From positions 1-64,000 of the forward strand of contig JAAXXS010000001.1 in the NCBI GenBank assembly GCA_013334395.1: a stretch of 64,000 bases of DNA. The letters run 5' to 3'. This document shows positions 55,386 to 60,696 of the stretch, one piece after another. Both the position numbers and the translations under genes were made by a program. Position 1 is the first letter of the stretch; the number at the start of each line of letters is the position of its first letter. The stretch comes from Holophagaceae bacterium. GTDB taxonomy: Bacteria; Acidobacteriota; Holophagae; Holophagales; Holophagaceae. The notes beneath the pieces were generated by a model, which was not told where the DNA came from, made no database searches, and saw only the letters and a list, made by a program, of their open reading frames with translations.

Positions 55386-56065
55386 GGGGCGGGATCCCAG
55401 TCATCGGGGGTCGGTTCCCGGGGGCCGAGGCGGGCATCCGGGGGGAACCAGGCATTCCAGCGGGCCAGATGCCGGGCGACGTATTCTCGCCCCCAGAACC
55501 TCATTCGGCTCGTCCAGGGCCAGTCGTCAGTCCGGGCCGGGACGCCCCAGGCCTGAAGGCCGATCTGGTCCGCCAGGTAGAGGGCCCGGGGAAGATGGAA
55601 GTCCGAGGTCACAATCACCGCCTGACGCTGACCGAACACGACCTGGGCGCGCCGGAGGCTGTCCCAGGTGCGCAGGCCGGCGTAATCGCTGACGATGCGG
55701 GTGGGCGGCACCCCCTGCCGGATCAGCCAGCGGCGCATGGCCTGGGGCTCGTTGTAGGTGGGATGGCGGTTGTCTCCGGACACCAGGAACCAGCGCACCT
55801 TGCCAGTCCGGTAGAGGCCATGAGCGGTGCGCAGCCGTCCCTCCAGGATCGACGTGGGCTCACCATCCCCATAGACACCGGCTCCGAGCACCAGCACCGG
55901 CCCACCCACCACGGGCAACTGGTCGGCGGGATAGACCTGCAAATGGTGCATGGCGGGGAACCTAACCAGGGTCCAGAGCAGATCTCCGAGGAGGGCCAGC
56001 GCTGGGACCAGGATCAGGGGCCACCGGTGCTGCCGGCAGCGATGAAGGAAGGCGGAGATGGACAT
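55382..56065 (-). CDS. YdcF/SanA/ElyC (DUF218) family membrane protein
   Basis: VLVLGAGVYGDGEPTSILEGRLRTAHGLYRTGKVRWFLVSGDN, VTSDFHLPRAL. Confidence 0.85.
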   Translation of the reverse strand: MSISAFLHRCRQHRWPLILVPALALLGDLLWTLVRFPAMHHLQVYPADQLPVVGGPVLVLGAGVYGDGEPTSILEGRLRTAHGLYRTGKVRWFLVSGDNRHPTYNEPQAMRRWLIRQGVPPTRIVSDYAGLRTWDSLRRAQVVFGQRQAVIVTSDFHLPRALYLADQIGLQAWGVPARTDDWPWTSRMRFWGREYVARHLARWNAWFPPDARLGPREPTPDDWDPAP

Positions 56066-56141
56066 CGTGAGTTAGCATAGACCTTTCGTCCGCCAAGACC
56101 CACGGACCTCCGTTCCCTTTCGAGACTTCCATCGAGACCCG

Positions 56142-59100
56142 TTGATGATCATGCGCCTCCGTTCCGCCGTCGTCCTCTCCCGGACCCCCCTTGCCGGCAC
56201 CCTCCAGGTACTGGCGCCGCTGGCGCTTGTCCTCGCCGCTGGCAGCACGGGCTGCTTCCGGGCCACGGGGATCTCCCGGCCCGACGTGGTGGTGGAGGAG
56301 ATTGCGGCGACCGGAGGCGACCGGGTCTCGGGCCTGAAGGCCACCGCCGGCCCTGGGGACTATTATCTGGGCAATGATAGCGTCCACCTCGCCGTGGATG
56401 GCGCGGTCTACGGGGACCGCGAAGGCCAGCTGGGTTCGCCCTCGGGGGGCGCCATCCTGGATGTGGGCTCCATCGCTCTGGACCAGAGCTTCCACCGGGT
56501 TTCCATGCCCACCGACCTGGTGGAGCGGCTGGGTCTGGTGGCCAATCAGGATCCAGACCTGCCCGTGATCATCGATCGGTTCATTCCCTCCTCCAACAGC
56601 GCCTCGGTCTACCTTGAGATGCAGGGGGGATTGCTGGACACGAAGGGCAAGCTGGGCGCGGCCAAGGATGCCCAGGGCCGGGTCACGGGGGTCTCGCTGG
56701 TGCACCGGATCACCCTGAACAAGGCCGATGGCTTCTTCCTGCTGGAGACCACGCTGACCAATGGGAGCGGGGCGACCCTCCCGCTGCGCAATGTCGGGGA
56801 CTACCTCTCCCAGCGGGGAGGCGGCCTCCGCTTCGTGGTGCCTGCTGTCTCTACCTTCGCGGGCGCACCGCTCAGCACGTGGGGGGTCGAAATCCCGGGT
56901 TCGGACTTCTCCGCCCCGCTGACCACCAGCGTGGTCGCCCCCATGGTCGGCCTCATGGGCGCCGAGTCGGCCGACAACACCAGCGACTACCACGCTTCCC
57001 TGGGCATTCTCCCGCTGGATGTCGATGGCGTCCTGGTCGCCTCGGATCCGCAACAGGCTCTCACGGAAAACCGCCCTAAGTTCCCTGCTCGGCTCGTGGT
57101 GGGCAGCCCCGCGGTGGCCAACCTTGCGGCGGGCCAGTCGGTCAGCTACCGTCGCCGGCTCTACGTCGTCGGCGGGTCCAGCTACGTCGGCTCCCTGCCG
57201 GCCCAGACCACCACGGTCTTCACCCTGATGACCCAGGCCAGGGCCGGGTTCCGGACCGAGGATGTGGGGTATCTGGCCTACACCAGCTTCGGGACCGCGG
57301 TCCGTGGCGGCCCGCGCCAGGCGGAGTTCAAGTTCGAGCGCTACACCTACACCGGTAGCCAGGCCTTCAACCTGGCCGATCCGGCCAACCCGGCCAACCA
57401 GCCCGCCAACTGGCGCCTGGAGCGGGTGGAGTGGCGGGAACCTACCGACATCTCCGCCGGCATCTCCAGCATCGGGATGTTCCTTCCCGTCATCCCCGAT
57501 GGCACCAGTGGGCTTTCGCAGCGCTACCGGATCACGGCCCGAAACAGCCTCCAGCAGAGCAGCCCGCTCTATCTGGGAACGAACGCCCTGGATACCACCC
57601 GTCCCGCCCTGGCCACGCCGGTGACTCCATCCAAGACCCAGAACTGGTCGGTGCTTGAGCCCCTCAGCCCCGAGCGGGACGAGGTCCTGGACGCTTCGGG
57701 GAACATCCTCCGGCAGACCCAGACCGCCCACACCTTCTCGGCCCGGCAGTCCGGCACGCTGGAATTCGGGGGCATCAACCCGCTGCGGATCACCCTCCAG
57801 GGCGTGGGTGTCGCTGACCCAAGTTCCCAGCGCATCCGTCGGCTCGCCAGTGCCTACAACGAGATCTACAAGGGCAAGTTGCCCGTTGGAACGAACTACG
57901 GTTCCTACCAGTACACCGCAGGGAATCAGGTCTTTGGCACGGCCTTCGGGTCCACGGCAGCCTCCACGGTGATGTCCTTCCCTGCCGGGGACTACGTTGC
58001 CTATGCCACCCGGGGCCCCCTCTCCCACCTGGACTCCCTGCCGGTGAAGGCCTTCGACGGCCAGACCAACAACGTCCACGGCTTCGTGGTGACTCCGCCC
58101 ACCCTTCCCACGGGCTGGACCAGCTTCGATGTGCCGGGACCCACCCAGGTCACCACGGGCGGCTTCAACCCTGGTGAGTTGCTCAGCTCTGCTGTGGCCG
58201 AGGGCATTCAGGTCGTCACCCGCACCGAAGAAGACGCCCTGACCGATCCCACCGCCCTCCAGGTGGAGTTCCGTTCGGAGATCGACAACACGCTCCTGGT
58301 CAGCGATGTCCAGCGGGTGCCCATCGGCAGCGATCCCTTCGTGATCGGCGCCCGCAGCGCCTCCCTCAGCGATGGCTTCACCACCGCCCTCTTCACGCCC
58401 GCCCCCACCACCGATCGCAATGGCGGCGCGCGCCCCTCCAAGGGGTGGAACCTGGCCGACTTCATCACCCAGGCCGAAGGTGGCTACACCATCATCCACC
58501 GGCCGCGCGGCCCCGTCGGCCTGTTCACAGCTCGCGGCTTCAGCCGCACCGTGGCCCTGGGCACCGGGGTCAACGCCTGGTGGAACGCGACGGGTCCGGC
58601 CTCGCTCGGCAAGCGACTCGGGGACTTCGACGCCCTGGAGCTCCTGCGTGCCGAGGGCTTCGATCCCACCAACCCCACGGCCTGGGCGACTGAGTTCAAC
58701 GCGGTTCGCGATGACTGGTATGCCCTCCTCAACCAGCAGACGCCGACGGCCTTCACCAAGGGCCTGGGGCTCTCCTCGGCCCGCTACAGCCTGGACACGC
58801 CGGTGGGTCTCGCCAGGACCTACCTGAAGATCGGGACATCGACGCTCAGCCAAGGCTCCCTCACCCCGGTGCTCACGGCCCTCCGCAGCGGTGCTGCGGT
58901 GGCCTCCACGGGTCCCATGCTCGAGGTCTCGGTGAGCGGGGTTGGACCGGGTGGTCTGGTGGCGGGTCCCGTGGCCAGCGTGTCTGTGACGATCGCCCTC
59001 TACGCGCCAGACTGGGTGCCCGTGGACGAGGTCCGCGTGGTGGTGAATGGCTCGAGCACGCCCATCCCGGTGCCCCTTGGCAGCTTCACGGCCTCCGCGA

Positions 59101-59318
59101 CCGACTTCCGGCTCCGGACGGCCACGGTGACCGTCCCTCTGCCCGCGGGCAAGGATGCGTGGCTGGTGGTGGAAGCTGGCGTCCCTCGGAGCACCACGGG
59201 CGTCTACCGGGCCGGAACGCCCTGGAACAAGATCATGAAGGGCCTCTATCCCATCGCCGTGACCAACCCGATCTTCGTGGATGTCAGCGGTGGCGGCTAC
59301 ACCCCTCCAGGACTCTGA
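56142..59318 (+). CDS. Large lipoprotein resembling CehA/McbA PHP-domain metallohydrolases but without metal ligands
   Basis: Lipobox-like STGC; C-terminal architecture FDALELL...RTYLKIG...AALRSGAAVASTGP...TNPIFVDVSGGGYTPPG. Confidence 0.65.
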   Translation: MMIMRLRSAVVLSRTPLAGTLQVLAPLALVLAAGSTGCFRATGISRPDVVVEEIAATGGDRVSGLKATAGPGDYYLGNDSVHLAVDGAVYGDREGQLGSPSGGAILDVGSIALDQSFHRVSMPTDLVERLGLVANQDPDLPVIIDRFIPSSNSASVYLEMQGGLLDTKGKLGAAKDAQGRVTGVSLVHRITLNKADGFFLLETTLTNGSGATLPLRNVGDYLSQRGGGLRFVVPAVSTFAGAPLSTWGVEIPGSDFSAPLTTSVVAPMVGLMGAESADNTSDYHASLGILPLDVDGVLVASDPQQALTENRPKFPARLVVGSPAVANLAAGQSVSYRRRLYVVGGSSYVGSLPAQTTTVFTLMTQARAGFRTEDVGYLAYTSFGTAVRGGPRQAEFKFERYTYTGSQAFNLADPANPANQPANWRLERVEWREPTDISAGISSIGMFLPVIPDGTSGLSQRYRITARNSLQQSSPLYLGTNALDTTRPALATPVTPSKTQNWSVLEPLSPERDEVLDASGNILRQTQTAHTFSARQSGTLEFGGINPLRITLQGVGVADPSSQRIRRLASAYNEIYKGKLPVGTNYGSYQYTAGNQVFGTAFGSTAASTVMSFPAGDYVAYATRGPLSHLDSLPVKAFDGQTNNVHGFVVTPPTLPTGWTSFDVPGPTQVTTGGFNPGELLSSAVAEGIQVVTRTEEDALTDPTALQVEFRSEIDNTLLVSDVQRVPIGSDPFVIGARSASLSDGFTTALFTPAPTTDRNGGARPSKGWNLADFITQAEGGYTIIHRPRGPVGLFTARGFSRTVALGTGVNAWWNATGPASLGKRLGDFDALELLRAEGFDPTNPTAWATEFNAVRDDWYALLNQQTPTAFTKGLGLSSARYSLDTPVGLARTYLKIGTSTLSQGSLTPVLTALRSGAAVASTGPMLEVSVSGVGPGGLVAGPVASVSVTIALYAPDWVPVDEVRVVVNGSSTPIPVPLGSFTASATDFRLRTATVTVPLPAGKDAWLVVEAGVPRSTTGVYRAGTPWNKIMKGLYPIAVTNPIFVDVSGGGYTPPGL

Positions 59319-59334
59319 CCGGCAGGAGTGGCAC

Positions 59335-60696
59335 ATGGCGGACTGGCTTCCGGAACGACTCCCGGAAGATATCGATGCTGAGCGGTCGTTCCTGGCGACC
59401 TGCTGTGCCCCCGGTGCAGGCTTCATCGCCAGCGAGGCCGTATTCACTCTGACGGAAGAGGACTTCGTCCACCCTGCCCACCGGGCGGTCTTCCGGGCGC
59501 TGAAGACCCTGATCGAGGCCCAGGTCGAGGTGAACTCCCTCACCCTGAAGGACGCCCTGGATCAGGACGACAGCCTGAACAAGGTGGGCGGCTTCACGGG
59601 ACTCACCGACATCCTGATGGCCGAGGACGTGGAGCGGCCCCAGGTGCTGGCCGACGTGATCCGCCGCAAGGCCAAACTGCGCCGCCTGGTCCACCTCGGC
59701 GCCCAGCTGGTCAGGCAGGCCGCCGAGGAGGAGGAGGCGCCGGAAGTGCTCGTGGACCTCACGGCCCAGAGCCTGTTCCAGCTCGCGCAAGGGGACGCCA
59801 AGACCAAGGGCCTGCTGTCCATCCAGTCCGTCGCCGACGATGCCATGGTGCGCCTGGCCGACCGCATGGAAGGCCGCCTCTCCTCGGGCATCCGGGTGGG
59901 CTTCAGCCGCTTCGACGACCTGACCCAGGGCTTCCAGCCGGGCAACCTCATCGTCCTCGCGGCGCGGCCCGGCATCGGCAAGACCGCCCTGGCCCTGAAC
60001 TGGGTCCTCAACGCGGCCCGGGTGGGCGGCCACTGCGGAGCCTTCTTCAGCCTTGAGATGAGCCATGAGGAGGTCTTCATGCGCCTGCTAGCGGCGCAGA
60101 GCCAGACCAACATGAAGGACCTCCAGTCCGGCCGGGCCTCGGGTCAGATGGAGAAGGTCCTGGAGAGCCGCGATGCGCTGGTCCAGATGCCGCTCTACAT
60201 CTGCGACCAGGCCTCCATCACCGTGCCGCTCATCCAGAACATGATCGTGAAGCAGGGCAGCCAGAACAACCGCCGTGTGGAGTTCGTGATCGTGGACTAC
60301 CTGCAGCTCATCAGCAGCCCCGAGGGCAGCCGCGGGGCCAAGCAGAACGAGGCCGTCCGCATCGGCGAGATCAGCCGCGGTCTGAAGATCATGGCCAAGG
60401 ACTTCGGCATCCCCGTGGTGGTGCTCTCCCAGCTCAACCGCGAGGTGGAGCACCGCACCGGCGGCCGGCCCCAGCTGAGCGACCTGCGGGACTCGGGCGC
60501 CATCGAACAGGACGCGGACATGGTGGCCTTCATCCACCGGAAGATGATGCCGTCCGCCAACGAAGAGCCCGACAACACCGCCGAGCTGATCGTGGCCAAG
60601 CACCGCAACGGGCCAACTGGCCTCATCCAGCTGCACTTCACGGGTGAGCATGCGCTGTATCGCGAGCTGATCCGGGAGACCAGCAGCTTCGGGTGA
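59335..60696 (+). CDS. dnaB: Replicative DNA helicase DnaB
   Basis: LPEDIDAERSFLATCC, AARPGIGKTALALNWV, FFSLEMSHEEVFMRLLA, VDYLQLISSP, DLRDSGAIEQDADMVAFIHR. Confidence 0.96.
   Translation: MADWLPERLPEDIDAERSFLATCCAPGAGFIASEAVFTLTEEDFVHPAHRAVFRALKTLIEAQVEVNSLTLKDALDQDDSLNKVGGFTGLTDILMAEDVERPQVLADVIRRKAKLRRLVHLGAQLVRQAAEEEEAPEVLVDLTAQSLFQLAQGDAKTKGLLSIQSVADDAMVRLADRMEGRLSSGIRVGFSRFDDLTQGFQPGNLIVLAARPGIGKTALALNWVLNAARVGGHCGAFFSLEMSHEEVFMRLLAAQSQTNMKDLQSGRASGQMEKVLESRDALVQMPLYICDQASITVPLIQNMIVKQGSQNNRRVEFVIVDYLQLISSPEGSRGAKQNEAVRIGEISRGLKIMAKDFGIPVVVLSQLNREVEHRTGGRPQLSDLRDSGAIEQDADMVAFIHRKMMPSANEEPDNTAELIVAKHRNGPTGLIQLHFTGEHALYRELIRETSSFG

Follow-up and report, generated by a model that had tools for sequence, protein, structure and literature searches.

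Within the window (the whole 64,000-nucleotide stretch of Holophagaceae DNA that was analysed), the plus-strand reading frame 56142-59318 encodes a predicted lipoprotein of 1058 aa that retains the domain frame of a CehA/McbA-type hydrolase while all metal ligands of its PHP domain have been replaced. We consider it likely that the protein is a lipid-anchored, extracytoplasmic pseudoenzyme, descended from such a hydrolase and now binding or scaffolding at the envelope. It represents an entire branch of secreted CehA/McbA-like proteins that are inactive by sequence and belong, in single copy, to the core gene set of a bacterial class, and the intact sister proteins allow direct comparison, providing a clean case for the role of a dead hydrolase in the envelope. 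We found no description of this protein in the open-access literature. Loss of PHP ligands was already known from DNA polymerase III (PMC3666897), and what is new here, as judged from alignments, is that the CehA/McbA relatives include a clade without the ligands. Automated annotation as a 'metallohydrolase' would mislabel the Holophagae clade.

The reading frame reported in the earlier note is real and conserved within the genus (64-89% identity in 36 other genomes), but its TTG start at 56142 is probably not the one used. Because this TTG sits immediately before an ATG, translation probably begins at ATG 56145 or ATG 56151, giving a coding sequence of 56145-59318 (residue numbers here count from 56142). 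An antisense open frame of 1193 aa (55962-59543, minus strand) spans the entire gene, and several relatives (L002, L019, L030) also have antisense frames, some shorter and some longer; the antisense frame is probably a high-GC artefact.

The signal peptide (56145-56255) ends at Cys38 (codon 56253-56255), which is preceded by a hydrophobic stretch, is invariant in the class alignment and is followed by F or Y, in agreement with the earlier assignment as a lipoprotein. Both hallmarks of bacterial lipoproteins, an N-terminal hydrophobic segment and a lipobox Cys, are thus present, and with F after Cys38 the window protein is predicted to be lipidated with a residue other than Asp at +2. It presumably resides at the membrane and may be exposed at the surface. 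The lipobox pattern (regex) was found in just 2 of 27 metal-intact relatives, so that lipidation of the class protein looks like a change that accompanied ligand loss; the same regex passed over 11 class members in which the Cys is visible at the same place.

Homology to CehA/McbA proteins and domain architecture

The CehA/McbA layout that had been recognised in the C-terminal half is borne out by profile comparisons. The NCBIfam model NF038032 (CehA/McbA metallohydrolase) matches residues 849-1047 (E 3.1e-15, 56.4 bits) over profile positions 150-315 only, and the score lies below the family cut-off of 80 bits. Other class members reach 59-79 bits in a protein scan and several members of family f2 reach 81-100 bits in a genome scan, with class proteins matching only from profile position ~120 on, whereas the six metal-intact relatives scanned score above the cut-off and match from profile position 1-4 to 315. 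Alignment of the window's family with the metal-intact set by hhalign (probability 100%, E 2.5e-64, 826 columns) spans the N-terminal as well as the C-terminal half, which shows that homology extends beyond the PHP domain, and the two E values together exclude chance likeness. The motifs quoted in the earlier note all lie in the claimed register: the profile-profile alignment pairs SFDVPGPT with SADLHVHA and RTEED with STDHEN, and the multiple alignment pairs RPR with NHPR and LSSAR with NSDSH. A Pfam search with the window protein gave no match, and phmmer against the PDB gave chance matches only.

The AlphaFold2 model of the window protein (pLDDT 91, pTM 0.89, 77-row alignment) predicts a supersandwich, Ig-like modules, a PHP-type barrel and a C-terminal Ig domain, all on the plus strand. 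Residues ~45-350 (56274-57191, boundary approximate) form a galactose-mutarotase-like supersandwich (pLDDT mostly >90, Foldseek), while residues ~351-653 (57192-58100, boundary approximate), which show β structure in the model, are assigned as Ig-like/carboxypeptidase-regulatory-like linker modules on the basis of the CarboxypepD_reg module present in the metal-intact relatives. The earlier note had recognised no family in this N-terminal half; structure comparison now supplies one. The PHP-type barrel without a metal site (residues ~654-922; 58101-58907) is supported by NF038032, AlphaFold2, Foldseek, hhalign and motif counts, and the C-terminal Ig-like domain of CehA/McbA type (58908-59315), which carries TNPIFVD, by NF038032, the model and an identity comparison; this last domain is the best-kept part across the class. 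The PHP-region strands of the model (658-662, 690-696, 732-741, 744-749, 781-785, 830-835 and 872-876, where model numbering is the 56142-based residue number minus one) fall as the motifs predict, and the former ligand positions lie at or near their C-terminal ends, in line with the PHP fold that had been expected from a structure-based check.

Foldseek searches of the PDB with the window model returned galactose mutarotase-like sandwiches, YidC P1, GH36-GH38 sandwich domains and the PHP protein 3e38, with whole-chain TM-scores that are low because the protein is multidomain. 3e38 (BVU_3505, a Bacteroides PHP-like two-domain protein) offers a solved PHP plus second domain matched by the window model, but is annotated as a predicted metal-dependent phosphoesterase, and the solved construct has neither supersandwich nor lipid anchor. 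Matches to the model of L116, an intact Myxococcales relative (pLDDT 83), include rhamnogalacturonan lyase, mutarotases and the RNase AM PHP domain. Relatives of similar layout were found by profile searches in Myxococcota, Poribacteria and other Acidobacteriota classes. The metal-intact ones (among them L112, L113, L116, L124, L130, L155 and L162) share the supersandwich, the Ig/CarboxypepD_reg-like module, the PHP domain and the C-terminal Ig domain, but keep nine invariant PHP ligands (alignment A5), score above the NF038032 cut-off and mostly have no lipobox. With CehA/McbA proteins proper the window protein has in common the PHP-type barrel followed by a C-terminal Ig-like domain (hhalign, the model, 3e38) and the FDAxE, RTY, STGP and TNPIFVD landmarks, whereas the ligand motifs of that family (D-x-H-x-H, S-x-D, T-D-H-N, G-x-E, G-H-x-N, N-H-P and S-D-S-H) are all replaced, the first half of the profile is unmatched, and a supersandwich and lipid anchor are extra. 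By these comparisons the protein falls outside the CehA/McbA metallohydrolases, yet it is plainly derived from one.

Loss of the metal site

The nine ligands invariant in the intact set are H550, H552, D558, H583, E609, H625, H670, D761 and H763 (L116 numbering). In the window the alignments, supported by hhalign at the first motif, place D663-V-P665-G-P667 (58128-58142) at the former D-x-H-x-H, G673 (58158-58160) at the S-x-D ligand, E696-E697-D698 (58227-58235) at T-D-H-N, R747 (58380-58382) at the Glu of G-x-E-[VI]-T, T756 (58407-58409) at the His of G-H-x-N, R787 (58500-58502) at the His of N-H-P-R, with P788 and R789 kept, and S879-A880-R881 (58776-58784) at S-D-S-H, with S878 kept. R747 and T756 add two lost ligands to those listed in the earlier note, which was right that the metal ligands are substituted, in the window at every PHP position and throughout the class at the six that align best. 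One correction applies: the His of IIHRPRG (H786) is not a ligand position, and the ligand column of NHPR is R787.

Tabulated across homologues, as had been proposed, the ligand positions are invariant in intact relatives and replaced in all 78 Holophagae sequences. The six best-aligned columns read H, H, H, H, D, H in 26-28 of 28 intact relatives and mostly P/A/D, P/R/K/L, E/Q/I/T, R/Q/N, S/A/G and R/K/L/G in the class, where a single stray His at 787 is the only ligand residue, while W859, R892, G924, P925, W958, N1042 and P1043 are scaffold columns common to both sets. Misalignment of the ligands was considered and rejected, as motif counts made without column matching agree with the alignment: HxH and [DE]H[NDE] occur in 26/26 intact sequences and 0/78 class sequences, and a stray NH[PA] or [ST]D[SAT]H string occurs once each in three class sequences and twice in none. 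The 269-aa PHP region of the window protein contains one His and no Cys, and a search of this region for a replacement His/Cys site found none, nor any conserved His or Cys in the window's family. With every ligand lost and none replaced, hydrolysis by the PHP mechanism would be impossible by known chemistry. The residues now at the old site differ by family (P/P in the window's family, where P665, P667 and G673 are fixed or nearly so; A or V / K or L in f2; D or E / R in f3), while acidic residues remain beside it, D663 being invariant and positions 696 (E/D) and 698 (D/N) acidic or amide across the class. These could hold a weakly bound cation.

Retention across Holophagae and possible roles

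Among 60 related genomes searched, the gene occurs in all 37 of the window's genus (Geothrix/Holophagaceae) and in each of the 16 that represent two other class families (~30% identity over the matched parts); at the sensitivity of this search, seven further families of the phylum lacked it. Sulfidibacter and Acanthopleuribacter are included in the remaining families of the class. In a profile census of the class Holophagae the gene was present as a single copy in 90 of 93 genomes, including 60/60 of good quality and two of only 1.2 Mb (G222, G281), and the three class genomes that gave no match are incomplete (84%, 71% and 89%). Holophagaceae genomes without a match are G307 and G308 (both of genus g149) and G282; the absence from g149 could reflect a real lineage loss or incompleteness. 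A maximum-likelihood tree, calculated with the ligand columns left out and drawn with a midpoint root, separates the ligand-less set from the other sequences by a branch supported at 96/90, for which a single loss of ligands in the Holophagae ancestor is the simplest reading. Comparison with close relatives gives a dN/dS of 0.13-0.17 for the whole gene and 0.09-0.16 for the PHP half, and within the window's family the PHP domain is conserved to the same degree as the supersandwich, with a mean identity of 0.55 for the former and 0.51 for the latter. Catalytic residues have thus disappeared, yet strong purifying selection still acts on gene and scaffold, which is the signature of a lineage-fixed pseudoenzyme and not of a decaying gene. 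Takeover by a paralogue was rejected, as no full-length intact paralogue was found in the class. With one intact copy in nearly every member of Holophagae, the dead enzyme frame has evidently acquired a use of its own.

We propose that the Holophagae ancestor possessed a secreted CehA/McbA-type metallohydrolase (supersandwich, Ig modules, PHP barrel and C-terminal Ig domain) that would have lost all metal ligands, and with them hydrolysis by the PHP mechanism, and would have acquired a lipobox and so a membrane anchor, probably at the outer membrane (inner leaflet or surface). The PHP barrel would have been retained as a folded module, either as structural core or as an altered pocket, and binding or scaffolding at the envelope would most likely occur through the sugar-binding-type supersandwich and the Ig domains. 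As the supersandwich is common in carbohydrate-active enzymes, contact with glycans is plausible. The window protein itself is presumably without hydrolase activity and presumably serves in binding or as a scaffold, although the variation between families at the old site, which indicates no class-wide re-used pocket, is a point against this reading. More tentatively, one ancient loss may have produced a lipid-anchored receptor or scaffold, by now a core component of the Holophagae envelope that might even be essential, and a new D-V/L-P-G/A-P ligand pocket may have become fixed in Holophagaceae. By analogy the closest parallel is E. coli DnaE (DNA polymerase III alpha), whose degenerate PHP domain lost ligands and serves structure, with barrel fold and structural role kept (PMC3666897). 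That domain belongs to a cytoplasmic replicase and to another PHP branch, has lost only several ligands and is not part of a lipoprotein.

The DnaE case, in which a ligand-less PHP domain persists as a structural element (PMC3666897), would equally suit a protein whose barrel is purely structural and whose supersandwich is itself catalytic in a mutarotase- or lyase-like manner, so that it would be a different sort of enzyme. Mutarotases and polysaccharide-active enzymes are among the matches to the supersandwich, which is conserved within the family at the identity given above and contains H284, the sole conserved His of the window's family. We nevertheless judge this improbable: the metal-intact relatives have this supersandwich too, and their catalyst is evidently the PHP domain; H284 is conserved within the window's family, but the class-invariant columns include no His; and YidC P1, an equally good supersandwich match, is no enzyme. 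A residual or altered metal enzyme, in which D663, E696, D698 and others form a new catalytic cation site, appears less probable still. The conservation of these acidic or amide positions speaks in its favour, but they are non-ligand positions of the PHP motifs, the old ligand columns carry Pro, Arg, Lys, Gly or Leu, and the region has the dearth of His and Cys described above. That the gene is a decaying pseudogene or an assembly artefact has almost no probability; loss of all ligands by itself could reflect decay, but the reading frame is intact in essentially all class genomes, dN/dS is low and even the 1.2-Mb genomes keep the gene, and decay was rejected on these grounds.

Genomic context and other PHP genes

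The replicative helicase gene dnaB (59335-60696, plus strand) starts 16 bp past the lipoprotein stop, and the two genes stay together in several genera of the family, one of the genomes concerned being 1.2 Mb in size (L172); this suggests co-transcription. The window gene is divergent from a DUF218/SanA-like gene. The dnaB pair was not seen in f2, where the neighbours are GH57/glgC, or in f3, where they are a MutS-like gene or saccharopine dehydrogenase; as neighbours differ between families and the dnaB pair is confined to the window's family, the context gives no functional hint, and an operon-based assignment of function was rejected. Neighbours of the intact relatives are likewise diverse (diacylglycerol kinase, metallo-β-lactamase, HD, CoA-transferase) and suggest no pathway, with the YegS-type diacylglycerol kinase beside the L179 relative a possible hint of a lipid-related ancestral role. 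The metal-intact relatives L179, L183 and L184, from three other Acidobacteriota genomes, have flanking genes in common.

Other PHP genes of the class encode ~290-aa PHP proteins, a two-LTD/PKD/PHP protein (f3) and β-propeller CehA-like proteins, and no supersandwich was found in those checked. The f3 protein (~990 aa; L045:1280-4246, L046:824-3811) surrounds a PHP domain, in which HxH and DHNH are intact, with LTD-like and PKD-like parts that are apparently repeated, and is unrelated to the supersandwich layout.
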